A DNA stretch of 33,324 nucleotides from a virus. Where the stretch lies: positions 1-33,324 of the IMG/VR virus record IMGVR_UViG_3300015192_000005; one strand, given 5' to 3'. Each line of letters starts with the position of its first letter. Positions within the stretch are counted from its first letter, which is position 1. Below the pieces are notes generated by a model. It saw nothing but the letters and a program-made list of their open reading frames with translations, made no database searches and was not told the DNA's origin. Made by a program: the position numbers and the translations under genes. This document shows positions 8,410 through 31,054 of the stretch, in pieces.

Positions 8410-8748
8410 ATGGTCACTCGATACGCGCTCTATACCCCGGTCGCCGGTACGACGTCGTTCGTGCTCGCAGACGCTTTCGCCACCCAGGCCGCTGCCGTCG
8501 CTGCCAACCTGGACGCGAAAGGTGTCGTGATCACGGTGGACGTGATCGACGACCAGCGGGCGCGTGTCGACGACGGCGTCACGATCGCGGTCAAGTCTGC
8601 AGACCTCCCACCAGGCATGGCGCAATTCCCGGACGGGACACTGCAGGCTACCTGCGGACGTGCGGCCGGCCACGGCGGTAAGCACCGGGGACCGGTCTCA
8701 GTCATCGCCACCGGGGCGGCCGTCGGTGCCATCTATCAGTGGACGTAG
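8410..8748 (+). CDS. Hypothetical protein in tail-fibre region
   Basis: The 112-residue product starts at ATG 8410 behind a GGGAGAG ribosome binding site. An N-terminal beta strand (TRYALYTPVAGTTSFVLAD) and a helix (QAAAVAANLDAKG) give a small alpha/beta domain. A CGRAAGHGGKHRGP segment follows. No known family is recognised. Its place between two minor tail proteins suggests a virion or tail-fibre accessory role. Confidence 0.55.
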   Translation: MVTRYALYTPVAGTTSFVLADAFATQAAAVAANLDAKGVVITVDVIDDQRARVDDGVTIAVKSADLPPGMAQFPDGTLQATCGRAAGHGGKHRGPVSVIATGAAVGAIYQWT

Positions 8749-8761
8749 GGGAGACTGACGC

Positions 8762-10885
8762 ATGGCCACGATCACCACCACCACCGCGAGCCCTGTCCTG
8801 CAATACCCGGCGTCAACGTTCATCGACCGCAACCCCAGCGATGGGTCGCTGTGGGCCATGGTCCGCAACAGCGCTGGCAACTTCGAGTTGTGGCGTTCCC
8901 CCGACGCAACCACCTGGTCCCTCATCGGCTCCGCGCTGGTGCGCGCCAACATGCAGGAGTGGGGGGGTATCTACATCTGGTTCGATCAGCTCTTCTGGTG
9001 CTACCGCGTCAATGAGGGCGGATTCGATGAGATCTACTCGCGGACGGCGTTGCTGACACCCACGTCGGTCACGTGGGACGCGGAGTGCGCTGTCCTCGGG
9101 CTCGGCAACAGTGGTACAGCCGGGTCGGTCTTCACTGGCATCGACTGCATCGCCGCGCCGACGTCCTGGGGCTTCACGTATATCGCTGTCGCCGGAGGGC
9201 TGAACGTCAACGGCTCCCTGGGTGTGGCCATCGGCGGGGCGACCATGGACCAGGGGACGCGGGTCTCTACCCACAACGACAGCATCATCACCGGGGGGCC
9301 GACCGGCGGAGGCTTCGGCGGCAACGTCTGGCTCCCCAAGGTGGGCACTGGGCGGCAGACACCATCGATCGGGTTCCAGCACGACAACACCGACGGCAAG
9401 ACCGCGAACACCCCCCACCTGTGGGTGTCGTTCGGTCGCACCGAGGCCTACACGCTGAAACTGACCTGGACACCGGGGCTGTGGTCCGGCCCGTCCACCC
9501 CCTCCACCGACTACACCGGGCTCACGGCACAGAACAGCATCACCGGACGGTGGGACGGGACGAGGTGGGTACGCGCCGTCCCCGACCCGGCGTCGACGTC
9601 AAAGGTCCGGATGCTGCAGCTCAACGCCTCGAACACCTCGCTCACGTCGGTGCTGACCCCGACCCATCCGACCGGGGTCGTCCGGAATTGTTCGATCATC
9701 GCGGACGCCGGCAACGGTAACCCGCGAGTCCTCGCCGTGGGCACCAGTACGACCGTCCTGTACTCCATCGACTACAACAGGGCGAACAGCACGTGGGGCG
9801 CCTGGACGGCCGTACTCGCTACCGCGGTCATGGGCACCAATGGTGACAACTGGGCCACTCGTCGGGACAGTTACGGTAACCGGCGCGTCGACTCGATCAC
9901 CGCGCAGTCTGGCGCGCCGAACACGATCATCCATACGCCGTCCGTCCTGCCGTACGCACCGAACACGCCGGTATGGACGACAGCGGGACTGGCGTACATG
10001 GATGGTGGCGCGGCTGACGTCGCCATCGCGCTCGTGCTCGACTGGGTCTTCTCTGACGCCGACCCGCTCGACACGCAGAGCGCGTACGCGGTCAGTCGGC
10101 AGGTCGGTGCCGGAGCGCTGGCGTACTGGCGAGCCAGTGACTCGACCTGGCAACCGGCGGAGGTGCAGAACACGAGCGGGACCACCGCGCTCACGCTCGC
10201 CGCGAGCTGGGCCGCCGGCACGGATGCCAACTACGTGTTCAAGGTCAAGTATTGGGACTCGACCAGCGTGGCATCCAGCTACTCCGGCGCGCTGACGATC
10301 ATCCCGTCCGTGGTGGTCAACCCGGCTGTCACGGCGCCCACCGCCGCACAGGTGCTCGGTGTCGGCACGCTGATCGTGACCTGGACGGCCACGGAGCAGA
10401 CCGCGTACCGGATCACGCTGGCCACCAACCCGGGAGGGGTGAGCGCGTACGACTCTGGCTGGGTCACCAGCACCGTACGTACGCTCACGGTGCCGAACAT
10501 CCTGGCCAACGGCACCGGGTGGACGGTGACGCTCCAGACGCGCAACAACGAGGGCCTGGCTAGCGCCGTCCAGTCGGTCAACTTCACGGTCGTCTACACA
10601 CCGCCGGCCACGCCTACCTTGGTCAACACAGCCGTCCCCGCGTCCGGCTGGGTCTCCGTCGCCGTCACCAACCCGACCCCGACCGGTGGGCAGCCCGCCG
10701 TGACCACGCAGGAGCTGTACCGGCGGGTAGTGGGCGATGGCACCAACGGCATCCGACTGGTGACCGGGCTCGCGTCCGGCGCCACGTACCAGGACTGGAA
10801 GGCCGTCTCCGGCGTGGCGTACGAGTACCGCGTCCAGGTGTTCGGGGCCAACAGTGCCGCTGCGTACAGCGCCTGGACAGCCTGA
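8762..10885 (+). CDS. Large minor tail protein / tail fibre with propeller-like and Ig/FN3-like domains
   Basis: The 707-residue protein starts at ATG 8762 with GGGGAGA just upstream. Residues ~15-395 contain repeated blade-like units: NPSDGSLWAMVRNSAGN, LWRSPDATTWSLIG (a degenerate Asp-box, S-x-D-x-x-x-W), TRWVRAVPDPAS and YSIDYNRANSTWGAWT. These suggest a sialidase-like beta-propeller. Residues ~400-705 carry three successive FN3/Ig-like modules, each with a YRITLAT- or YRVQVFG-like strand near its end and Pro-rich joints. It is the last tail gene and so the likely receptor- or glycan-binding fibre. No enzyme motif is certain. Confidence 0.7.
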   Translation: MATITTTTASPVLQYPASTFIDRNPSDGSLWAMVRNSAGNFELWRSPDATTWSLIGSALVRANMQEWGGIYIWFDQLFWCYRVNEGGFDEIYSRTALLTPTSVTWDAECAVLGLGNSGTAGSVFTGIDCIAAPTSWGFTYIAVAGGLNVNGSLGVAIGGATMDQGTRVSTHNDSIITGGPTGGGFGGNVWLPKVGTGRQTPSIGFQHDNTDGKTANTPHLWVSFGRTEAYTLKLTWTPGLWSGPSTPSTDYTGLTAQNSITGRWDGTRWVRAVPDPASTSKVRMLQLNASNTSLTSVLTPTHPTGVVRNCSIIADAGNGNPRVLAVGTSTTVLYSIDYNRANSTWGAWTAVLATAVMGTNGDNWATRRDSYGNRRVDSITAQSGAPNTIIHTPSVLPYAPNTPVWTTAGLAYMDGGAADVAIALVLDWVFSDADPLDTQSAYAVSRQVGAGALAYWRASDSTWQPAEVQNTSGTTALTLAASWAAGTDANYVFKVKYWDSTSVASSYSGALTIIPSVVVNPAVTAPTAAQVLGVGTLIVTWTATEQTAYRITLATNPGGVSAYDSGWVTSTVRTLTVPNILANGTGWTVTLQTRNNEGLASAVQSVNFTVVYTPPATPTLVNTAVPASGWVSVAVTNPTPTGGQPAVTTQELYRRVVGDGTNGIRLVTGLASGATYQDWKAVSGVAYEYRVQVFGANSAAAYSAWTA

Positions 10886-12877: not shown

Positions 12878-12919
12878 CGAACGACCCCCTGGTCGGGGAG
12901 TGGACCAGGGGGTCGTTCG
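12878..12919 (-). terminator. Hairpin terminator of the membrane/translocase operon
   Basis: A perfect 17-bp inverted repeat (12878-12894 with 12903-12919) has an 8-nt loop and lies 11 nt beyond the stop of the gene ending at 12930. On the minus strand TCTT follows. It ends the operon that begins at 16314. Confidence 0.85.
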
Positions 12920-12929
12920 CTGTTTGCGA

Positions 12930-13334
12930 TCAGTGGTGATGCGTGATGGTCACGACCGTGACGCACGTCCCGGCGCTGGCGACCAGGGCGCCAAGGATGA
13001 GCAGGAAGACACCGCCGCCCACCACCGCAGCACCGTGATGCGCCACCGCGCGATACACCTCGTACCCGGCAAGGCCCACCAGGGCCAGCATGACGACAGC
13101 GAACGTGACCCCGAAACCGAGCAGGAACGCTCGCACCTTGCGGTCGCGGGCCCGGATCAAGTCCTGGCGGTACGCCCACCGCGCGTACCGCTCCTCATAT
13201 TGCTCCGCGCGTACCCGCCGCCATTGGGCACTGCGCCATTCCGCGAGGTACGCCGCGTCCCGCAGGACGACCTCGCCCCGCAGGACCACGCCGCCCGGCG
13301 CCCACTCCTGACGCGCCCGCTGCTCGACCGTCAC
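12930..13334 (-). CDS. Two-helix membrane protein with charged N-terminal half
   Basis: The 134-residue product starts at GTG 13334 (GTGA overlap with the upstream stop; GGGGGT precedes it). Residues 1-65 are charged, W/R/Y-rich and helical (AEWRSAQWRRVRAEQYEERY). Two transmembrane helices follow at ~69-92 and ~102-128. The last gene of the translocase operon, it may be a membrane partner of the translocase. No family recognised. Confidence 0.65.
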   Translation of the reverse strand: MTVEQRARQEWAPGGVVLRGEVVLRDAAYLAEWRSAQWRRVRAEQYEERYARWAYRQDLIRARDRKVRAFLLGFGVTFAVVMLALVGLAGYEVYRAVAHHGAAVVGGGVFLLILGALVASAGTCVTVVTITHHH

Positions 13335-13540
13335 AGCACCCCCAACCCGTGAAGACCAACCCAGCCGAGGGCAGCGACGCCGGCCACGATGGTGAGCCCG
13401 GCCATGGCCCAGTTCCGCGCGTGCCTCGACTGCTGATGGAAGCGCTGGCGCGCACGCTGCGCCGCCAGCGTCACGCTCAGCGCGTACCAACCAGCCGGAG
13501 CGCCGACCAGGAACCCGGCACCCATCCCAATGAGCATCAT
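13331..13540 (-). CDS. Small two-helix membrane protein
   Basis: The 69-residue product starts at ATG 13540, overlapping the GIY-YIG gene stop (ATGA); GGGAG lies 12 nt upstream, and a GTG at 13546 with 6-nt spacing is an alternative. Two hydrophobic helices (~3-24 and ~46-66) flank a basic linker (AAQRARQRFHQQSRHARN). Function unknown; it lies between two other membrane protein genes of the translocase operon. Confidence 0.6.
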   Translation of the reverse strand: MMLIGMGAGFLVGAPAGWYALSVTLAAQRARQRFHQQSRHARNWAMAGLTIVAGVAALGWVGLHGLGVL

Positions 13541-13986
13541 TGCCACGATCGACTCCCAGCCCGATGACGGGCGACCGGTGAGGCCGGAAGGGATGCATCC
13601 CGTAGCCGACGCTGTCGGCGCGCTGTGTAGATCGGGACCCGCCGCGGGTTGGCGAGGTTCCACTGATAGTTCAGCCGTGGCTGGCGGAGCACGATGCGCC
13701 ACACCTCAGCCCACCACAGGTGCGGCGTCGACACCCGACGCCACTGCTTGATCACACGGCCCCGCACGATCAGGTCCCCCCATGGCTGCGTCTTGCGATG
13801 CTGCTCCCACCGCGCGCCCGGACGCTGCCGGGTCTTGCCGATGTAGTCGTTACGGTGCAGGCGCCCCGTACGGTGGTCAGCCACGTCGAGCGCGTAGATG
13901 GTCCCGGGCCGACGCGACAGCCACGTCCAGCCCACCAACGCAGCCAGTGGGACCAGCATCACGACCCACCACAACAGTCCCGTCAT
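13537..13986 (-). CDS. Membrane-anchored GIY-YIG nuclease-like protein
   Basis: The 149-residue protein starts at ATG 13986 behind GGAGAGGGGG. Residues ~4-24 form one transmembrane helix, placing the remainder in the cytoplasm. The soluble part carries a GIY-YIG core: GTIY (28-31), DYIGKT (47-52), an Arg-rich helix with RWEQH, a possible metal-binding Glu in WWAEVWRI (E94) and the late Asn region LNYQWNLANPRR. In this family the Tyr pair, Arg and Glu form the catalytic site that cuts one DNA strand. It is unusual to find the fold tethered to a membrane. It is downstream of the FtsK-like gene by 17 nt, suggesting action on DNA handled by that motor. Confidence 0.65.
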   Translation of the reverse strand: MTGLLWWVVMLVPLAALVGWTWLSRRPGTIYALDVADHRTGRLHRNDYIGKTRQRPGARWEQHRKTQPWGDLIVRGRVIKQWRRVSTPHLWWAEVWRIVLRQPRLNYQWNLANPRRVPIYTARRQRRLRDASLPASPVARHRAGSRSWQ

Positions 13987-14003
13987 GATGTCCCCCTCTC
14001 CTG

Positions 14004-15503
14004 TTAGTCCGCACCGTTGCCACTGCGACCAGTGAGGCTGCGGTAGTAGTCCTGCGACACCTTGATGGCTCGCGCGACACGAGCACGCTCCTCCGGCGAC
14101 ACCCACGCGCCGCGGTACTTCACGATGGGACCAGCGGGCAGTGTCGTCCACATGACCCCAGCCGTTGCGACACCGGGCGCGAGTTGGTGCGCCGGGAAGC
14201 GGGCCGGGTCAAACCCAAGCGACCGAACGACATCGTCCGACCCGACCCGGCCGCACGCGACATAGCCGAACAAGTCGCGGGCCGCGCCGAGCACCTCCTT
14301 CTGCGACAGTTGCGACAGGGCGATGACTGTCGCACCCGCACTGCGACACTGCGACAGGTAGACCGGAAGCGCTTTGCTGAGTGCGACACGACGGCCGTTG
14401 ACGTTGATCTGGGTCTTACCGTCGCTGAGAAGTGTCGCTGTCACCAACTCGTCGATGATCATGATGTCGAGCGGGTCGCCCCGAGTGAATGGCGACTCGA
14501 GCAGGTCACGCGCGGCCAGTAGTCCCTGCTGCACGTGCAGCGCACCGAGGGCGAGTTCCATGAACCGGGGCCACTTGCTCGGGTCGGACTCGTACAGGTA
14601 CGCCACGTCGCGCAGGAGGTGGAACTCCTGGCCGCCCTTCGGGTCGAACACCCGCAGTCGGAAGGGGATCCCTGCCTCGAGCAGGCCCTGCAGCACGCGC
14701 CATGCCTCGCTGGACTTCCCGGCACCCTGGCCGCCCACGAGCAGGGTAGGGAGACGGAGGTCTTTCTCGATCGGGTCGCCGTATGCGTCCAGGCCGACCA
14801 CCACATGCAGCGGTTTCGTGGCCTTTGGCAGCATCTCGGGCACCACGACACGCCGGAAGGCATCCGCGTATATGAGGTCCATCACGATGTGGGTCTCCAC
14901 CGTGGAACGGGCGAGGCGCCGAGAGGTCGAGGGGGTGGAGGAGAGCGCCATGTCCCGCGCACCGAATGCCGTAGTGAGCCTCCCGGCAGCGATGGTGAGC
15001 TGGTCAAGACCTGCGCCGACCGGTGAGCCGTCGAGCACGACGCGGACCCCGACGGCCGTGGGCGAGAGGCGTACCAGACGCGGGACGCGCTTGCGATCAG
15101 CGTGGCCCGGCTGCGCCTTGGCCAGCCCGGCGTCTGTCATCGCCGTTACCCAGCGTCGCCGTACGCGTCGTCTGCGTCGTCGGTAGGCGTTGGCTCCTGC
15201 TAGGCTCGGCACAAGCTGGCGCCGTGCCGCGGGAGTGAACGCGATCGCCGCCGCCCCGACGCCCGTCACGCTGAGTACCGCTCGCCAGTCCCCGTACGGC
15301 GACAGCAGGCAGGCCCCGACGCACAGCGCGGCCGTGGTTGGCCTGGTCGCCACCAGGATGAGGACCCGCAACGCGAGGGCCGCGAGGTACTGCACGGTCC
15401 GCCGTGCCAAGAGCAGGCCGCCGTCCCGGAGGCTGATAGCGCGGCGTGAGGCGCTGGGGGTGAGGGCTGGTACTGTGGCCGTTTCGTCCAGGGCTGTCGT
15501 CAT
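14004..15503 (-). CDS. FtsK/TraB-like membrane-anchored DNA translocase
   Basis: The 499-residue protein starts at ATG 15503, overlapping the preceding stop (ATGA). Residues ~36-92 contain two or three transmembrane helices, followed by a basic stretch (YRRRRRRVRRRW). The motor domain has Walker A GGQGAGKSS (257-265), the FtsK-typical DPKGG (287-291), Walker B DIMIIDE (346-352) and SQLSQKE as sensor region. FtsK/SpoIIIE and the TraB proteins of actinomycete plasmids are hexameric ATPases that pump double-stranded DNA through a membrane pore. Here only ~40 residues follow the motor core, so the winged-helix DNA-recognition (gamma) domain appears missing. Its neighbours are mostly membrane proteins. 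TraB-like versus segregation-type function cannot be decided from sequence. Confidence 0.85.
   Translation of the reverse strand: MTTALDETATVPALTPSASRRAISLRDGGLLLARRTVQYLAALALRVLILVATRPTTAALCVGACLLSPYGDWRAVLSVTGVGAAAIAFTPAARRQLVPSLAGANAYRRRRRRVRRRWVTAMTDAGLAKAQPGHADRKRVPRLVRLSPTAVGVRVVLDGSPVGAGLDQLTIAAGRLTTAFGARDMALSSTPSTSRRLARSTVETHIVMDLIYADAFRRVVVPEMLPKATKPLHVVVGLDAYGDPIEKDLRLPTLLVGGQGAGKSSEAWRVLQGLLEAGIPFRLRVFDPKGGQEFHLLRDVAYLYESDPSKWPRFMELALGALHVQQGLLAARDLLESPFTRGDPLDIMIIDELVTATLLSDGKTQINVNGRRVALSKALPVYLSQCRSAGATVIALSQLSQKEVLGAARDLFGYVACGRVGSDDVVRSLGFDPARFPAHQLAPGVATAGVMWTTLPAGPIVKYRGAWVSPEERARVARAIKVSQDYYRSLTGRSGNGAD
14053..14438. repeat. Cluster of the word GCGACA (TGTCGC) inside the translocase gene
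   Basis: TGCGACA on either strand starts at 14053, 14166, 14302, 14311, 14328, 14342, 14350 and 14382, with further GCGACA at 14074, 14257 and 14433. This is eleven copies in under 400 bp. They fall in different reading frames of the gene (as CTG TCG CAG, TGT CGC, GTC GCA and GCG ACA), so codon choice alone does not explain them. A second dense patch spans about 16000-16500 in and before the DUF2637-like gene. Confidence 0.6.
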
Positions 15504-15577
15504 TTGGTGCTCTTACTCCCATTTCGTATCGCGATGAGCTGTGCGCCGATGTACTCGCAAAACAGGTCGAGGATCAT
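15500..15577 (-). CDS. 25-residue ORF linking the DUF2637-like and translocase genes
   Basis: ATG 15577 overlaps the upstream stop (ATGA) and its TGA overlaps the translocase ATG (ATGA); GAGAGGGA lies 5 nt upstream. The peptide is MILDLFCEYIGAQLIAI followed by RNGSKSTK. It matches the operon's overlap style, so it is probably translated and may simply carry ribosomes to the translocase start. Its ILDLFC is encoded by a 19-nt sequence identical to the methyltransferase motif I region at 17516-17534 (here 15556-15574). Confidence 0.6.
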   Translation of the reverse strand: MILDLFCEYIGAQLIAIRNGSKSTK

Positions 15578-16314
15578 GGCGTTCCCTCTCTCGTGCTTGT
15601 CGCGCGCCGCCGCTGGTACCGCTCAATCGTCTTCTTGCTGACTCCCAGCACCAGGGCCACGCTGGCGCAACTCTCGCCCGCCGCAAGCCGGCGCCGAGCC
15701 TCTGCCTGGTCCCACTTACCAGGCTTGTCGGCGGGCTCAGTGCGCGCCCGGGGGAGACGCTCTGCAGCCCGCACGATGTCCTCGGCATCACGCACGATGG
15801 CAGCCTGCACGTCGGCACCCGAGCGAGGGGGACGGGGCGCAGCGGGCCTGGTGGCCGCCCGGCGAGGGGTACTCGGGACCGCTTTTGCCAGCCTGTCCAG
15901 CGTCCGTAGCGTGACGATCGTCAGGTGAGAGGTCAGCGCGAGCATGGCCGGCCACGCCGCTGCCCCGATCCGACCCTGGACATCCAGGTGCATGTGATCC
16001 GCGTGCGACAGGTTGCCGGCGATCGAGGCGCCGCACGACACCGCGAACACCAACCAGGCATACGCCCGCTGTCGCCACCCAGCGTGTCGCAGCAGGAATG
16101 TCGCCGCGATCGCGACCACCGTCAGGCCATCGATGCCCAGCGGGACAAGGACAGACAGGTATCCCACCTTCGCGACATCCTGGCCGTACCCGTCATTGCC
16201 CTGGAACGACAGCGCGAACGTCATGAACGCGACAAGGACTGTCGCACCCAGGAGCACGTACAGCGCCACCTGTCGTGTCCCACGGTCGCTGTCGCCCGTC
16301 GCTGTCGCTGTCAT
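15574..16314 (-). CDS. DUF2637-like four-helix membrane protein with C-terminal helix-turn-helix
   Basis: The 246-residue protein starts at ATG 16314 with GGGGAGAGGG just upstream. Transmembrane helices lie at ~15-37, ~50-74, ~82-102 and ~113-134, with the PLGIDGLTV and GNLSHADH signatures of DUF2637. A Pro/Ala/Arg linker leads to a helix-turn-helix at ~205-236 (RRRLAAGESCASVALVLGVS, then KKTIERYQRRR). DUF2637 proteins are common beside FtsK-like genes on actinomycete plasmids and integrative elements. Because the translocase lacks its own DNA-reading domain, this HTH may supply sequence recognition at the membrane; that is inference. It is the first gene of the operon. Confidence 0.75.
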   Translation of the reverse strand: MTATATGDSDRGTRQVALYVLLGATVLVAFMTFALSFQGNDGYGQDVAKVGYLSVLVPLGIDGLTVVAIAATFLLRHAGWRQRAYAWLVFAVSCGASIAGNLSHADHMHLDVQGRIGAAAWPAMLALTSHLTIVTLRTLDRLAKAVPSTPRRAATRPAAPRPPRSGADVQAAIVRDAEDIVRAAERLPRARTEPADKPGKWDQAEARRRLAAGESCASVALVLGVSKKTIERYQRRRATSTREGTP

Positions 16315-16349
16315 GTGTCCCTCTCCCCTACGATGTGTGTCGCACATGG

Positions 16350-16395
16350 GTAAGCGACGTCCGGGACTCTCAAGCGTTCACCAAACGTCGCTTAC
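16350..16395. promoter_or_regulatory. 11-bp inverted repeat in the leader of the translocase operon
   Basis: GTAAGCGACGT (16350-16360) and its exact complement (16385-16395) are separated by 24 nt. The repeat lies between the predicted start of transcription (~16397) and the ribosome binding site, so it could be an operator or a leader RNA hairpin. Each arm contains GCGAC, echoing the word enriched in the operon. Confidence 0.55.
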
Positions 16396-16403
16396 TAGCT
16401 CCC

Positions 16404-16433
16404 ACGGTAGACCCTAGTAGGTCTACGTCGCAA
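16404..16433 (-). promoter_or_regulatory. Promoter of the DUF2637/translocase operon with internal palindrome
   Basis: On the minus strand TTGCGA (16433-16428), an 18-nt spacer and TACCGT (16409-16404) form a plausible promoter. A perfect palindrome with 7-bp arms, 16407-16426, lies across the spacer and contains CCTAGTAGGT, the same core as the operators at 21086, 25604 and 28023. The transcript would have a leader of about 80 nt. Confidence 0.55.
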
Positions 16434-16443
16434 CCCGTGAGAC

Positions 16444-16483
16444 ACAGAGACACCCGGTAGCGGTCGCTACCGGGTGTCTCTGT
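16444..16483 (-). terminator. 19-bp hairpin terminator of the methyltransferase operon
   Basis: 16444-16462 pairs perfectly with 16465-16483 around a minimal loop, 16 nt after the stop of the gene ending at 16499. It isolates that operon from the translocase promoter immediately downstream. Confidence 0.85.
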
Positions 16484-16498
16484 CGCGCTGAGGTGTCG

Positions 16499-16825
16499 CT
16501 ACGCCTGTGGGGTCGAGGGCTGGTCCGCGTTCTTCGCGTCCACTGCGATGGACTCGAGGGCACCCTCGATCGCGACGCCCGCCTCCTTGACCGTGGCGCT
16601 GGTCCACTCACGGTAGATGCGGACCGCCTTCGTCCACATCCACGCGTCGCCGTCGGTGGCCAGCGCTTCGTGCACCGCCTCCCGTGCTGTCGCGAGGTCA
16701 GCGTCACGTACCGGCCTGTCGAGCATGGCGAGCAACCGACGCGCATCAGCGCGCTCAATCTCGTCCTCCGACTGCGCCGCCTTCTGCAACTCTGCGATCC
16801 TTGCCTTGATGTCTGCAGCCTTCAT
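16499..16825 (-). CDS. Hypothetical helical protein, 108 residues
   Basis: The product starts at ATG 16825 behind GAGAGGAC. It is almost fully alpha-helical and acidic (AADIKARIAELQKAAQSED, ADARRLLAMLDRP, ATAREAVHEALATDGDAW), with a short C-terminal tail. No motif recognised. It ends the operon before the 16444-16483 hairpin; the 76-nt gap to the methyltransferase is the largest in the operon and contains a TAGGTTAGGGT stretch that might hold a weak promoter. Confidence 0.65.
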   Translation of the reverse strand: MKAADIKARIAELQKAAQSEDEIERADARRLLAMLDRPVRDADLATAREAVHEALATDGDAWMWTKAVRIYREWTSATVKEAGVAIEGALESIAVDAKNADQPSTPQA

Positions 16826-20138: not shown

Positions 20139-20196
20139 AGGCGCCCGATGCCGCGGGCTTGACGCTGGCTCGCTTAACGAGGCGAGACGACGTCCG

Positions 20197-20266
20197 TGGT
20201 CCCGGGAGGAATCGAACCTCCGTCAACCCGTGTGCCCTCGGGGCTCTGCCACTGAGCTACGGGACC
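20197..20266 (-). tRNA. tRNA-like gene 1, anticodon undetermined
   Basis: The 70-nt element has a 7-bp acceptor stem (GGTCCCG/CGGGACC), TA at positions 8-9, a 4-bp D stem (GCTC/GAGC) with a GG-containing loop, and a 5-bp T stem with loop TTCGATT. The discriminator is A and no CCA is encoded. The anticodon arm is abnormal: CCCG pairs with CGGG around AGGGCACA, one base short of the normal arm and without U33. It may be a real tRNA with an odd arm, a decoy or a decayed gene. Confidence 0.6.
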
Positions 20267-20880: not shown

Positions 20881-20889
20881 TACCTCACG

Positions 20890-20981
20890 CGATCGGGCAA
20901 GGACTCGAACCTTGGAGACGCTACAGACTATGTCCGCCGCATCGCTACCTGACGACCGTTTGCGCTGGCCGTCTCCCGATC
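20890..20981 (-). ncRNA. tRNA-like element 3 (92 nt, no recognisable anticodon arm)
   Basis: A 7-bp acceptor-like stem (GATCGGG/CCCGATC) directly abuts a perfect T arm (CAAGG, loop TTCGAGT, CCTTG), the geometry of a tRNA. The 5' part forms a strong hairpin (GACGGCC with GGTCGTC, one wobble), but the remaining ~36 nt contain no 5-bp stem with a 7-nt loop. An alternative AGACG/CGTCT pairing would make a three-way junction. It is downstream of its own promoter (21074-21102), so it is probably transcribed. It could be a degraded type II tRNA or a tRNA-mimicking small RNA. Confidence 0.45.
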
Positions 20982-25327: not shown

Positions 25328-25585
25328 CTACTCACTCTCTACGGTTGCGCCGTACGGGAAGTACACGGATGTGGCGTTGCCGTAGGAGTCGAGGCCGATC
25401 TCAAGGCCGAACATTTTGATCGTGTCGACCGCGACCCTGCTCCCCGTGACCGCAACGGCGTTGACCTCCGCGGAGAGCAACCCCGCGACGTGCTCCGTGA
25501 TCACGTCAATCTTCTTGTGAGACGACTTCGGCAGGGTCGCCTCAAGGAACTCCTTGAACGCCTCGAGCGCATCCTTATCGGTCAT
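25328..25585 (-). CDS. Small protein heading the nuclease/helicase operon
   Basis: The 85-residue product starts at ATG 25585, exactly 6 nt after the -10 at 25592-25597, so translation is predicted to be leaderless. The N-terminal helix (KDALEAFKEFLEATLPKSSH) is followed by strands (VNAVAVTGSRVAVDTIKMFG, ATSVYFPYGATVESE). It is the first of seven genes running to 21077. No family recognised. Confidence 0.65.
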   Translation of the reverse strand: MTDKDALEAFKEFLEATLPKSSHKKIDVITEHVAGLLSAEVNAVAVTGSRVAVDTIKMFGLEIGLDSYGNATSVYFPYGATVESE

Positions 25586-25591
25586 GGCCCA

Positions 25592-25620
25592 ACCGTACTA
25601 GGCACCTATTAGGTTGTCAA
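25592..25620 (-). promoter_or_regulatory. Leaderless promoter-operator of the nuclease/helicase operon
   Basis: Consensus -35 TTGACA (25620-25615), a 17-nt spacer made of the palindrome ACCTAATAGGT (25614-25604) plus GCCTAG, and TACGGT (25597-25592). Six bases separate it from ATG 25585. The TTGACA overlaps the stop codon of the gene ending at 25617. Confidence 0.85.
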
Positions 25621-25772
25621 CGCTGAGGGAGCCAGCAACCCGGATAAGGCCCAGATGTCATGCGCCAGAACAGGTCAGCCATGTGCGCGGACCTCGAGGC
25701 GCCGACCCGCTCGCACTTGACGTTGTAGCGGGTGGCACGGAAGAGCCGACGACGAACACGGGCCCTACTCAT
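25617..25772 (-). CDS. Small basic protein, 51 residues
   Basis: It starts at ATG 25772 (ATGA overlap; GGAGGACAAG upstream). The sequence is Arg-rich (SRARVRRRLFRATRYNVK) with C20 and C46 and ends PGCWLPQR. Nucleic acid binding is possible from charge alone. It is the second gene of a two-gene unit with the winged-helix gene. Unrecognised family. Confidence 0.55.
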   Translation of the reverse strand: MSRARVRRRLFRATRYNVKCERVGASRSAHMADLFWRMTSGPYPGCWLPQR

Positions 25773-26077
25773 GTCTTGTCCTCCACGCTCAACGCGGAAA
25801 GGGCGGCCTGTCCATCGTGGGTGAGCACCCACCGCCGCCGGTGAGACACCGAGGCCGGCGGGCGAGGGAGGAGCGCGACCAGCCCGGCCAACTCCAATGT
25901 GCGCATGTCGGCAGTGACGAACGCCGACCCACGGCCGGGAGCGGGACGGGTCACGACAGAGACCGCGTGCCACGTGGCCTGCACGCGGTTATACGTGTTC
26001 TCCCTCGTGACCCTGCCGTCGCGGACAGCGCGAAGGATGTCGACCTGTCTCGAGGTCAACCCGGTGGATGCAGTCAT
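25769..26077 (-). CDS. Winged-helix DNA-binding protein
   Basis: The 102-residue product starts at ATG 26077, 6 nt after its -10 (leaderless). The fold reads SRQVDILRAVRDGRVT (helix 1), ENTYNRVQATWH, then VTADMRTLELAGLVAL (recognition-type helix) and a wing with RRRWVLTHDGQAALSAL, as in MarR/PadR-like small regulators. A regulatory role within the right arm is likely; targets unknown. Confidence 0.7.
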   Translation of the reverse strand: MTASTGLTSRQVDILRAVRDGRVTRENTYNRVQATWHAVSVVTRPAPGRGSAFVTADMRTLELAGLVALLPRPPASVSHRRRWVLTHDGQAALSALSVEDKT

Positions 26078-26083
26078 GACCCA

Positions 26084-26112
26084 ACCGTACTAGGAACCTG
26101 TTAGCCCGTCAA
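26084..26112 (-). promoter_or_regulatory. Leaderless promoter-operator of the winged-helix gene
   Basis: TTGACG, then GGCTAACAGGT (26106-26096) plus TCCTAG as a 17-nt spacer, then TACGGT; 6 nt to ATG 26077. The operator matches ACCTANTAGGT at 8 of 11 positions. The element lies over the last codons of the gene ending at 26090. Confidence 0.75.
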
Positions 26113-26377
26113 CGGTGAACATAGACGCCAGGACCGCCATGACCAGGCCCATGTCCGCATCGTCCCGATCGGGTGGACGGGAGGCAGTCACCGCATCGCT
26201 GATCGACCGGTCAGACCACGCCATCGAGCCATTGAGCTCAAGCTGGAACGAGCGCACGGGACCACCGAGGTCGAGGACCGCGAGGACCACCCACGTCGTG
26301 CCGTCCGGCGCCTTCACCGCGTCGCCCGGCTGGATGCGGTCCCAGGTGGTCGGCCACCACTCCTGGTCGGTGCTCAC
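26090..26377 (-). CDS. Hypothetical protein, 95 residues
   Basis: It starts at GTG 26377, 3 nt after the endolysin stop, without an obvious ribosome binding site, so coupled translation is likely. The core IQPGDAVKAPDGTTWVVLAV is a short SH3-like beta pattern, followed by SFQLELNGSMAWSDRSISDA and a C-terminal hydrophobic helix. No family recognised; its place suggests co-expression with the endolysin. Confidence 0.6.
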   Translation of the reverse strand: MSTDQEWWPTTWDRIQPGDAVKAPDGTTWVVLAVLDLGGPVRSFQLELNGSMAWSDRSISDAVTASRPPDRDDADMGLVMAVLASMFTVDGLTGS

Positions 26378-27688: not shown

Positions 27689-28004
27689 GACTCCCCTCTC
27701 GCGTGTCGAAGACGTGGTGCTTTCGCGTGGCGCGGCGGGGAGCAACTCCATGCGCAACGTGCTCTCCGGCTGTGTCGCCGAGCTCACGCCGCGCGGCGTG
27801 CTCACGCGCGTGTCGGTGGAGATCGGCAAGGTCGGCCATGTCCAGGCTCAGTGTCGCCGCGCGTTCCATGCCGGCGAGGTAGGTCTGCTGATAGGTGATG
27901 CGGTAGCGGTCGGCAGCCGTGGGCCGCCGGAGCGCCAACAAGCGGGCAAGGTGCTCTCGCTCACTCTTGATGTGTCGCACCAGTGGGTGCGTACCCTCGG
28001 TCAT
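27636..28004 (-). CDS. Hypothetical basic protein from a leaderless promoter
   Basis: The 122-residue product starts at ATG 28004, 6 nt after the -10 TAGGCT. Residues ~8-70 are helical and charged (LVRHIKSEREHLARLLALRR, YQQTYLAGMERAATLSLDMA). The C-terminus is low-complexity (DTREGSHDAAGDSTQQPS) where it overlaps the next gene, so this end may be little constrained. First gene of the endolysin operon. No family recognised. Confidence 0.55.
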   Translation of the reverse strand: MTEGTHPLVRHIKSEREHLARLLALRRPTAADRYRITYQQTYLAGMERAATLSLDMADLADLHRHAREHAARRELGDTAGEHVAHGVAPRRATRKHHVFDTREGSHDAAGDSTQQPSCSDHG

Positions 28005-28010
28005 GGGGCA

Positions 28011-28044
28011 AGCCTACCAGAAACCTAGTAGGTACTGCTACCGT
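28011..28044. promoter_or_regulatory. Divergent promoters sharing one operator
   Basis: Palindrome ACCTAGTAGGT (28023-28033) is flanked by a minus-strand -10 (TAGGCT, 28016-28011; 6 nt to ATG 28004) and a plus-strand -10 (TACCGT, 28039-28044; towards the gene at 28083). The gaps to the palindrome are 6 and 5 nt. Neither direction has a good -35, and the operator takes its place. Confidence 0.65.
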
Positions 28045-28082
28045 ACGTGGGATGACGGGACACTCAGTGAGGGGACATATAG

Positions 28083-28559: not shown

Positions 28560-28589
28560 CCATTGATGCCGTACTCGGGAGTCAAATCC

Positions 28590-30704
28590 GTGACAGACCA
28601 TAGCACGACCACCAACCCCGTCTATGCGGCAGCGCTGGGCTACATCGCGCGCGGATGGGCTGTGATCGCCGTACACGGCGTGCGGGATGGTCGGTGCACC
28701 TGCGGCCGGTCGCCGTGCGGACGTGACGACAGGAGCGCTGGCAAGCACCCGGTACAGACGGACTGGCAGCGCCGGCCACCCATGAGCAGGGCGGACGCCT
28801 ACGCCACCTGGGTAGAGGAGGGCGCCGGCTGGAACATCGGGATCCGGACGGGACGGGTGGAGGGCGCGCGGGACTGGCTCTTCGTCCTGGACGTCGATCC
28901 CAAGAGCGGCGGGCATGAGTCGCTGCAGGGGCTGATCGCCGAGTGCGGACCGCTGCCGGACACATGGATGACCCGCACGGGCAGCGGCGGCGCACACCTC
29001 GGCTTCGCCATGCCGGACGGGATCGAGGTCCGCAACAACCAGCGCATGATCGCGCCGGGGATCGACATCCGCGGCACCGGTGGCTTCGTGGTCGCCCCCC
29101 CCAGCGTGAGCGGGATCGGCCCGTACGAGCAATTGATGTCCATCGACCCGGCGCAGCCGATGGACTGGCTCGTTGAGATGATCCGCTACCGACCAGTCGA
29201 GGTAGACACCACCGAGTGCGTGGAGGGCCTGCCCTCCTGGGACGACCTGGAGCCGTCGGAGCGCGCGCGGGTGCAGAAGTACGCGGAGGTCATCATCGCC
29301 CGCGAGGCACGCTCGTACGCCCTAGCGGAGCAGGGTACGGGCAACGCCACCCTGTACCGCGCGGCGTGCAAGGTGTTCGAGGTCGTCCAGTCACCGTGGA
29401 ACACGCTCACCGCCGACCACGCCGTGGACCTGCTCGACCAGGCCCGGCGGCGCCGACTCGAGCAGGTCCACGGTGGGCAGGACCAGGAGGAGTTCCGCAA
29501 GACGGTGAACTCAGCGATGACCAGGGTGGTCGGCCGCGGGAGGCCGCTACCCGAGCGACCAGCGGATCGGCTGATCTTCGACCACCCTGGTCTCCCCCTC
29601 GCGATTGAGGCGCCGGACGCGGGGGGTGACGAAGGCGAGCAGGAGGAGGTCGGACCGGGCAGGCCGCTGACCCTCAAGGAGCAGATCCGCGCCGAGATGC
29701 TCGACCGGGACGCGCTCGAGCGCGTGCCACCACTGGAACCGCTCATCGAGGACGTCCTCAACCTCGGTACCGAGTGCTGGTTGATCGGCGCACCGGGGAC
29801 GTTCAAGAGCTTCCTCGCGCTCGACTGGGCCGCCCACATCGCACTGGGCCGACCATGGCGCGGACACAGCGTGCTGCAGGGCAGGGTCATCTACATGGCC
29901 GCCGAGGGCGCTGAAGGTGTTCCCCAGCGGGTCCAAGCGTGGGAGATGACGTACGGGCAGCGGATGGCCGACGTGACAGTGCTACCGCAGCCCATCCAAG
30001 TCACCAACACTGACGCGTGGTCGGCGCTCATCGAGATATGCGCTGAGGACCGCCCCGTACTCATCGTGCTGGACACCCAGGCGCGCATCACGGTCGGGCT
30101 CGAGGAGAACAGCAACATGTCCATGGGCATCCTCATCGACGCCGTCCGGCGCCTGAAGGTGCGTACCGGCGCGTGTGTCCTGGTCCTGCACCACACCGGC
30201 CGCGATGGCGCGCACGCACGCGGGGCGTCTGCCCTGGACGGCGCGCAGGACACCGAGATACGGGTCGACCGGCCCGACAAGAAAGCGCGCGTGATCGAGG
30301 TCAGCGTGGATAAGCAAAAGAATAACGACGATAGCGCCGAACCGATCATTGTCGAGTTGCTCAAGTTAGAGGTGGGCATCCACCCGAGGACAGGCAAGCC
30401 CATCACGTCATTGGCACTGAAGCCGGATAGCCCATTCGCGCTTCCTCCGGTGAAGCGCAAGCCGTGGGTCGAGGGCCTGTCGTATAACCAGTCTGTCATC
30501 ATCGACGTGTTGTGGGAGTTCGTTGACCCGGACGGGCAGACAGTGCCTGAGATCCGCGCACTGATCAAGGAGCGCGGGTCAGATATGTCGAAACAGTCGT
30601 TTTACTATGCGTTCAATGCACTTAAGGCGACTTCGCCCGATCCGATCGTGATGCACGGGCTCGCCGGGACGCAACGCTGGACGCTCGCCTCCAAGCTGGA
30701 GTGA
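28590..30704 (+). CDS. Prim-Pol / RecA-fold helicase replication protein
   Basis: The 704-residue protein starts at GTG 28590 with GGGAG 8 nt upstream. The N-terminal bifunctional primase-polymerase (AEP) domain shows CTCGRSPCG...GKHP (zinc-type segment, 36-54), FVLDVD (catalytic D101, D103), GSGGAHLGF (131-139, H136) and GIDIRGTGGFVVAPPS. After a helical linker and an acidic hinge (~340-360) comes an ATPase with Walker A GAPGTFKS (400-407), Walker B VLIVLD (~490-495) and VLHHTGR. The C-terminus (~625-704) is winged-helix-like. This layout is used by RepPP-type initiators of actinomycete integrative elements and by some phages. Confidence 0.85.
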   Translation: MTDHSTTTNPVYAAALGYIARGWAVIAVHGVRDGRCTCGRSPCGRDDRSAGKHPVQTDWQRRPPMSRADAYATWVEEGAGWNIGIRTGRVEGARDWLFVLDVDPKSGGHESLQGLIAECGPLPDTWMTRTGSGGAHLGFAMPDGIEVRNNQRMIAPGIDIRGTGGFVVAPPSVSGIGPYEQLMSIDPAQPMDWLVEMIRYRPVEVDTTECVEGLPSWDDLEPSERARVQKYAEVIIAREARSYALAEQGTGNATLYRAACKVFEVVQSPWNTLTADHAVDLLDQARRRRLEQVHGGQDQEEFRKTVNSAMTRVVGRGRPLPERPADRLIFDHPGLPLAIEAPDAGGDEGEQEEVGPGRPLTLKEQIRAEMLDRDALERVPPLEPLIEDVLNLGTECWLIGAPGTFKSFLALDWAAHIALGRPWRGHSVLQGRVIYMAAEGAEGVPQRVQAWEMTYGQRMADVTVLPQPIQVTNTDAWSALIEICAEDRPVLIVLDTQARITVGLEENSNMSMGILIDAVRRLKVRTGACVLVLHHTGRDGAHARGASALDGAQDTEIRVDRPDKKARVIEVSVDKQKNNDDSAEPIIVELLKLEVGIHPRTGKPITSLALKPDSPFALPPVKRKPWVEGLSYNQSVIIDVLWEFVDPDGQTVPEIRALIKERGSDMSKQSFYYAFNALKATSPDPIVMHGLAGTQRWTLASKLE

Positions 30705-30729
30705 CGGCACGCGGTGTTCATGGGGCCAT

Positions 30730-30841
30730 GATCCTTTTTGGACTATGGCCCCATGATCTTTTTTGGACTCGGGTCTCAAAGCATGATCTTTTTTGGACTC
30801 GGGAAGATCTTTTTTGGACTACTAGAGATCTTTTTTGGACT
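30730..30841 (+). repeat. Iteron-like direct repeats (candidate replication origin)
   Basis: Five copies of a 15-mer GATCTTTTTTGGACT occupy 30730-30744 (one C for T), 30755-30769, 30785-30799, 30806-30820 and 30827-30841. The start-to-start spacing is 25, 30, 21 and 21 bp. An inverted copy with two mismatches is at 30869-30883. The T-runs make this the least GC-rich stretch of the window. The repeats follow the replication gene directly, as iterons bound by plasmid or phage initiators do. Confidence 0.75.
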
Positions 30842-31054
30842 CGGGTCGAGTTTACGCAGGTCAGGGGTGGTCAAAAAAAGATCTTGGGGGGGGTATGACG
30901 TGATCGAGATCCATCGATGGATTGGGATCACTACTAGCGTTCTTTTTGATCTAGGGGATTGTGCCCTTGAGCTGCACGTATGCAAGATCAGATATACAGG
31001 TATGTCGATGGAGAAGACTTTTTTGATCCAAAACGACTACCGGTTTGGTGAGAT

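Follow-up and report, generated by a model that had tools for sequence, protein, structure and literature searches.

FtsK-like proteins encoded by phages are already known (PHROG 1358) and are widespread. Which DNA a phage FtsK moves, and where to, is the question raised by an operon in an IMG/VR virus record, which was analysed at its whole length of 33,324 bases (referred to here as the window) and comes from a virus of soil actinomycete bacteria. Considering that this locus supplies a partner set and a candidate cis-acting site for one such motor, the question has now become directly testable.

The window is siphovirus-like: its plus strand encodes head-tail adaptors, a tape measure and tail proteins, and its minus strand carries genes of early type. 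The contig is probably incomplete, because the sequence begins within a gene at the left, and among the ORFs scanned none was recognised as coding for a terminase, portal or capsid. With regard to the combination that characterises AICEs (Int, Rep and an FtsK-type Tra), the incomplete contig holds a Tra-type motor and a Prim-Pol replicase together with structural phage genes, and neither an integrase nor a relaxase was recognised in it. AICEs use three replication types, of which Prim-Pol is one (PMC3218068). At 30727-30845, immediately 3' of the Prim-Pol/AAA gene, five 22-nt iterons with the core GATCTTTTTTGGACT form a candidate replication origin. A 46-nt intergenic repeat, operator- or promoter-like, occurs in three copies (25581-25626, 26073-26118 and 28000-28045; core AACCGTACTAGG.ACCT.TTAG), of which the third is just 63% alike. 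The open left end (1-540) carries 60-nt tandem-like repeats encoding 20-residue repeats (DLVSGTGTA..DxSSALTVAA), and two tRNA-like genes predicted by ARAGORN (20196-20266 and 20889-20981, anticodons undetermined) are probably spurious.

An earlier note on this DNA had proposed a plasmid-like membrane DNA-transfer module at 12930-16314, and all of the parts that it named are present there, encoded by the minus strand in convergent orientation to the late genes (Table 1). The operon is real and tight, with stop/start overlaps between successive genes and a hairpin at its end. Because the 25-aa ORF overlaps its neighbours on both sides, translational coupling is suggested; the ftsK and GIY-YIG genes are spaced by 17 bases with a strong ribosome-binding site. 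The start of the DUF2637 gene is taken as the ATG at 16314, which is preceded by GGGGAGAGG, and an in-frame upstream ATG at 16347 has no ribosome-binding site. The hydrophobic stretches of the last two ORFs agree with their previous description as membrane proteins, and searches of Pfam and PHROGs gave no confident family for the first of them and no family for the second. The earlier note mentioned neither the TGTCGC(A) array nor the terminator-like hairpin, nor that the gene trio recurs in other phages and prophages.

Table 1. Coordinates, strand and basis of assignment for features of the window.
Feature	Position	Strand	Basis
DUF2637 (SpdB-like) four-helix membrane protein with C-terminal HTH, 246 aa	15574..16314	-	Pfam, PHROGs, sequence
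25-aa ORF, ATGA overlap with both neighbours	15500..15577	-	sequence
FtsK/TcpA-type membrane dsDNA translocase, 499 aa	14004..15503	-	profile vs FtsK, AF2 model and Foldseek
Membrane-anchored GIY-YIG-type nuclease-like protein, 149 aa, N-terminal TM helix	13537..13986	-	9 homologues, catalytic residues kept
Small protein, two hydrophobic stretches, ATGA overlap with GIY-YIG gene	13331..13540	-	sequence
Small protein, two hydrophobic stretches, GTGA overlap with 13331..13540 gene	12930..13334	-	sequence
Terminator-like hairpin, 16-bp perfect inverted repeat GAACGACCCCCTGGTC / GACCAGGGGGTCGTTC, no clear T run	12879..12918	-	sequence
Array A: 12 TGTCGC (8 are TGTCGCA) in 3' third of ftsK, all three reading frames; candidate clt-like site	14054..14438	mostly -	word scans
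Array B: 12 TGTCGC in 5' half of DUF2637 gene and upstream	16005..16499	mostly +, opposite to array A	word scans
Prim-Pol + AAA_25 replicase	28563-30704		PF09250 4.8e-32

The translocase carries a Walker A motif (GGQGAGKSS, at about residues 257-265) and a Walker B motif (IMIIDE, at about 347-352), and hydrophobic helices at about 36-88, seen in both model and sequence, form an N-terminal membrane anchor. As a single sequence it matched Pfam FtsK_SpoIIIE below the cut-off (0.0041), and a profile built from 20 relatives matched FtsK at 8e-23 and TcpA at 4e-15. Foldseek matched its AF2 model (pLDDT 83, pTM 0.74) to the FtsK motor domain on DNA (6t8o, E 4.6e-17 over 382 columns), TcpA of pCW3 (6o1z, 2.5e-14) and EccC (9e-13), and far more weakly to the viral packaging NTPase B204 (2.7e-6). 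Profile and fold therefore agree with the previous reading of the protein as an FtsK/TraB-like membrane motor and place it with FtsK/TcpA, not in a packaging or unrelated ATPase family. TcpA, the FtsK-type conjugation ATPase of conjugative plasmid pCW3 and the second-best fold family for the window motor, works within a larger conjugation apparatus, unlike the window motor.

Since the motor domain ends near residue 466, about 30 residues before the C-terminus, and is followed by a single helix (470-491) in a protein that ends at 499, the gamma wHTH domain of FtsK is, judging from the model, absent. The DUF2637 assignment of the membrane neighbour is sound (PF10935, 1.6e-9; 38.3 bits against a gathering score of 22.8), and its C-terminal HTH emerges from several matches that are each weak alone (best Pfam HTH_7, 0.0025; phrog_664 DNA-binding, 3.2e-5). 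A motor devoid of its DNA-reading domain beside a membrane protein with an HTH, as the earlier note had it, is thus what we see, the HTH by these weak matches. The split of functions proposed on that basis is a possible interpretation. AICE Tra proteins of about 472 aa, whose DUF2637 partners gave no HTH match, end at the same profile position as the window motor, so loss of the gamma domain is not peculiar to the phage, and prophage translocases appear from their sequences to keep a C-terminal winged helix besides the membrane-HTH protein. The DUF2637 domain is shared with membrane proteins of cluster A mycobacteriophages (PHROG 733) at 33-37% identity; unlike in the window, no FtsK neighbour is present there in the one record examined. 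The label 'excisionase' that PHROGs and many records give to these cluster A proteins (including L075, mycobacteriophage SWU1 ORF34) may be a misannotation.

When used as single queries, neither the motor, nor the whole DUF2637 protein, nor the GIY-YIG protein gave a match in viral contigs, and the motor had none in INPHARED. Its viral-contig relatives were found with an alignment query, the best being L038 (47% over 373 aa) and L039 (41%). Plasmid matches were few and weak, the best being AICE pMR2 of Micromonospora rosaria (27%, E 4e-7), and the motor motifs, including conserved C-terminal ones, align with those of pMR2 and the plasmid relatives. In bacterial genomes, relatives of the motor occur at 32 actinomycete loci, many with DUF2637, RepSA and Int nearby; those examined in Micromonosporaceae and Nocardia are largely AICE-like (GntR, Tra, DUF2637, RepSA, Xis, Int). 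AICE Tra proteins, which fall into several clades, pMR2 included (PMC3218068), are by sequence comparison the nearest relatives of the motor outside phages. Maximum likelihood-based phylogenetic analysis groups the window motor with those of L038 and L039 in one clade with 100/100 support, outside the pMR2 AICE clade. The description 'plasmid-like' therefore holds only in part, considering that the motor belongs to this phage clade and that prophages repeatedly carry the GIY-YIG/translocase/membrane-HTH set. The tree and the weak plasmid matches do not support a recent capture from an AICE or plasmid. In the AICE-like viral contig L040, eight GACCCAC repeats in an intergenic region (9668-9817) may be an origin or a clt.

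The sister phage L038 also bears on whether the translocase fills phage heads like A32/PRD1-type ATPases. The HerA/FtsK superfamily does contain packaging ATPases, and no terminase is seen in the incomplete contig of the window. However, L038 encodes its own terminase (phrog_9, 2.8e-69), portal and major capsid protein besides the orthologous motor, whose gene is convergent to an r1t-type holin and tail genes as in the window; in addition, the window has a tape-measure protein and head-tail adaptors, and in the fold match FtsK outscores the packaging NTPase by ten orders of magnitude. A packaging role is therefore very improbable, and we reject a terminase- or A32/PRD1-type packaging ATPase, given an FtsK/TcpA fold match far above B204 and the separate terminase in L038.

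The GIY-YIG protein had no Pfam or other database match of its own and no PDB profile match, and a single-sequence structure model was too poor for use (pLDDT 53). Of 201 Micromonosporaceae genomes searched in full, 9 encode a homologue (at best 40% identity, 2.8e-19), and one of these homologues matched Pfam GIY_YIG_2 at 0.0048, the best Pfam match. Seven residues (Y31, Y48, G50, R59, H63, E94 and N106) are invariant in the window protein and its nine homologues, and among them is what we take to be the catalytic set (Tyr, Arg, Glu, Asn) known for the GIY-YIG family. The nine homologues keep every catalytic residue, which agrees with the previous assignment as a GIY-YIG nuclease-like protein.

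At least seven of the homologue loci, mostly in phage context, share one layout, namely a membrane protein that ends C-terminally in an HTH or HTH-like element, a membrane P-loop translocase and a GIY-YIG protein. This layout is listed for L039, L058, L067-L072 and L074, and holin or tail genes adjoin in most of these. Around the GIY-YIG homologues (L058, L067-L074), the order is mostly a long-linker membrane protein with the HTH or HTH-like end, further membrane proteins, a large membrane P-loop translocase, the GIY-YIG gene and convergent phage genes (holin, Dit, and the phrog_5313 and phrog_1887 tail-associated proteins). The translocase is recognised by FtsK_SpoIIIE in L067 (2.6e-60), by FtsK profile matches in L070 and L071, and by a P-loop read directly in L068, L069, L072 and L074. 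L073 is the exception, with no translocase upstream of its GIY-YIG gene, and the L074 contig ends soon after the GIY-YIG gene, so that phage context is outside its range. Upstream of the motor in L039 lie a membrane T5orf172-like protein (0.016, below the cut-off), a second T5orf172 protein above the cut-off and a membrane protein with an HTH-like end. The linked genes, whose absence from related phages the earlier note would have counted against its proposal, thus recur there. Homology between the window DUF2637 protein and the membrane-HTH proteins of the other prophages was considered and rejected, since hhalign detected none and PF10935 is absent at those loci; as far as sequences tell, the resemblance is one of layout alone. 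In the part of the literature covered, the layout appeared in no title or abstract opening on phage FtsK, DUF2637 or GIY-YIG-FtsK links.

The TGTCGCA repeat was first spotted by eye in the ftsK gene, so the motif was chosen after looking. It occurs 17 times in the window against 7.3 expected, a count reached by none of 100 shuffles, and 12 of the 17 copies fall within 14053-16344. For the shorter TGTCGC, 27 of 48 copies lie in 2.6 kb (13914-16494) across the DUF2637 and ftsK genes, where 3.8 would be expected (binomial P 5e-18), and at this scale no other hexamer of the window is as strongly clustered by region (-log10P 13.9, against 6.4 for the next unrelated word and 5.97 for the best of 30 block shuffles). 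The coding strand of ftsK has seven TGTCGCA, read as LSQ, CRS and VAx in three frames, against 0.73 expected under synonymous shuffling (maximum 4 in 2000), and the DUF2637 gene has 11 TGTCGC against 2.8 under protein-preserving codon shuffling. The two arrays are opposite in orientation (A, 11 minus and 2 plus; B, 3 minus and 9 plus; P 0.005). In a calibrated screen with 82 control genes of the same loci, the window ftsK comes first with the TGTCGC word at a score of 6.1, the next control reaching 3.7; for the DUF2637 gene the screen arrives independently at the same word (4.3). A scan for any heptamer confined to ftsK gave just P 0.013; the array claim is based on the scan of the whole window, together with the independent recurrence of the word in the DUF2637 gene. 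In the same screen, the membrane-HTH genes of L039 (CGGATA, 12 against 1.1) and L074 (CCGACC, 45 against 16.7) score above 8 and that of L058 is suggestive (4.0); clustering is not significant in those of L069, L071 and L072. Word scans of pMR2 and of L041, L045 and L047 gave nothing clear, the pMR2 AICE having no comparable cluster, and none was found in L038, whose operon is truncated. A TGTCGC array shared with the relatives scanned is rejected; the words differ and some loci show none.

In Streptomyces conjugation, one FtsK homologue assembles on short clt repeats and Spd membrane proteins aid spread; of these, SpdB2 sits in the membrane, binds to DNA and interacts with TraB, and SpdA2 binds sps palindromes inside its own gene (PMC4170104). 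The clt of pWTY27 consists of four 7-bp repeats that overlap the end of traA and are bound by TraA (PMC3583192). Like these TraB/TraA-clt systems (pSVH1, pIJ101, pWTY27), the window combines a single FtsK-like motor, Spd-type membrane partners and short repeats at or in the putative transfer genes, and its TGTCGC(A) arrays, which exceed synonymous expectation at a tra-type locus and are candidates for a cis role or binding, may by analogy be likened to clt transfer sites. Unlike them, its motor is without the clt-reading C-terminal wHTH, the HTH sits on the membrane partner, the repeat word is another one, and the set lies in a tailed phage and includes a membrane GIY-YIG protein. The pMR2 Tra clade similarly has an FtsK-type membrane motor of about 470-560 aa with no evident gamma domain and a DUF2637 gene nearby; it differs by forming a separate supported clade at the 27% identity given above, and the pMR2 AICE has RepSA, Xis and Int and neither a GIY-YIG partner nor a word array. 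Among phage FtsK/SpoIIIE-like proteins (PHROG 1358, mycobacteriophage LittleE gp198 and those of Bacillus SPO1-like phages), which share with the window a phage-encoded FtsK-type ATPase, the sole neighbourhood compared, that of LittleE gp198, shows neither a DUF2637 nor a GIY-YIG gene next to the motor.

Because the operon has the same kinds of parts as the Streptomyces transfer systems (motor, DUF2637 membrane partner and repeat site), we favour the interpretation that it is a phage membrane dsDNA-translocation module working like the Tra/clt systems of mycelial actinomycetes, at a probability that we place somewhat short of even. By analogy, such a module would most likely serve to spread phage DNA from cell to cell, be it inside one hypha or from one hypha to another. 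In this scheme, the HTH of the DUF2637 protein would read TGTCGC(A) and tether phage DNA to the membrane; this tethering could load the hexameric motor, which has no reading domain of its own, onto array A or B; the motor would then drive phage dsDNA through a septum or into an adjacent hypha, and the GIY-YIG protein might nick or cut DNA at the membrane, e.g., opening a circle or concatemer. Against transfer speak the lack of a comparable word cluster in the pMR2 AICE relatives and L038, the uneven clustering in the membrane-HTH genes of other phages (strong in L039 and L074, suggestive in L058, unconvincing in L069, L071 and L072), the lack of detectable homology of those membrane-HTH proteins to the window DUF2637 protein, and the absence of an integrase or relaxase from the incomplete contig.

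The same parts could instead serve partition, with the membrane HTH protein as a membrane-tethered centromere-binding protein, the TGTCGC arrays as centromere and operator, and the motor moving the phage or prophage replicon out of closing septa, so that it is passed on to every mycelial compartment. Array B overlaps the 5' end of the operon, as operator/centromere arrays often do, the two arrays lie outward and opposite in orientation, the phage has a Prim-Pol replicase and iterons, and SpdA2/sps of pIJ101 affects segregational stability and not spread (PMC4170104). However, at least two relatives (L058 and L067) lie in multi-megabase chromosomal contigs, as expected of integrated prophages, no ParA/ParB was noticed among the annotated ORFs, and the nuclease would not be required, which leaves partition unlikely. 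Exclusion of DNA or host takeover, in which the motor and tethered nuclease would attack incoming or competing DNA (superinfection exclusion) or disrupt host DNA segregation during infection, has a similarly low probability. Defence systems do couple HerA/FtsK ATPases to nucleases (PMC10853773), PHROGs classes phage FtsK-like proteins as moron/host takeover, the locus is next to the late genes at their lysis/tail end, where morons are common, and the GIY-YIG genes stay linked though the adjoining translocases differ widely, as in modular conflict systems; yet a dense array inside the operon implies recognition of self DNA, and the nearest motors outside phages are AICE transfer proteins. It is quite unlikely that the arrays serve as an operator or as some other DNA signal that has nothing to do with the motor, within a module that is the decaying remnant of an AICE. 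Array B surrounds the operon start and the HTH protein could autoregulate, but array A lies 1.6-2.4 kb downstream, inside ftsK, the motor motifs and gene overlaps are intact, and the motor falls in the phage clade, not nested among AICE proteins.

If the favoured reading of DNA transfer is true, the phage would gain a lysis-free route of spread inside the mycelium, and the boundary between conjugative elements and phages would be blurred in mycelial bacteria. The broader proposal is doubtful, namely that temperate tailed phages of mycelial actinomycetes carry a conjugation-like apparatus of their own (membrane HTH tether, FtsK-type pump, membrane GIY-YIG nuclease and phage-specific clt-like array), so that the phage or prophage genome could move between hyphal compartments as naked dsDNA besides virions.

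Apparent inteins were also observed at or beside Walker A in two distantly related phage translocases, one being the insertion at Walker A of the L039 motor (8500-9990) and the other lying at 5070-6270 of L058, where LAGLIDADG/Hom_end was matched.
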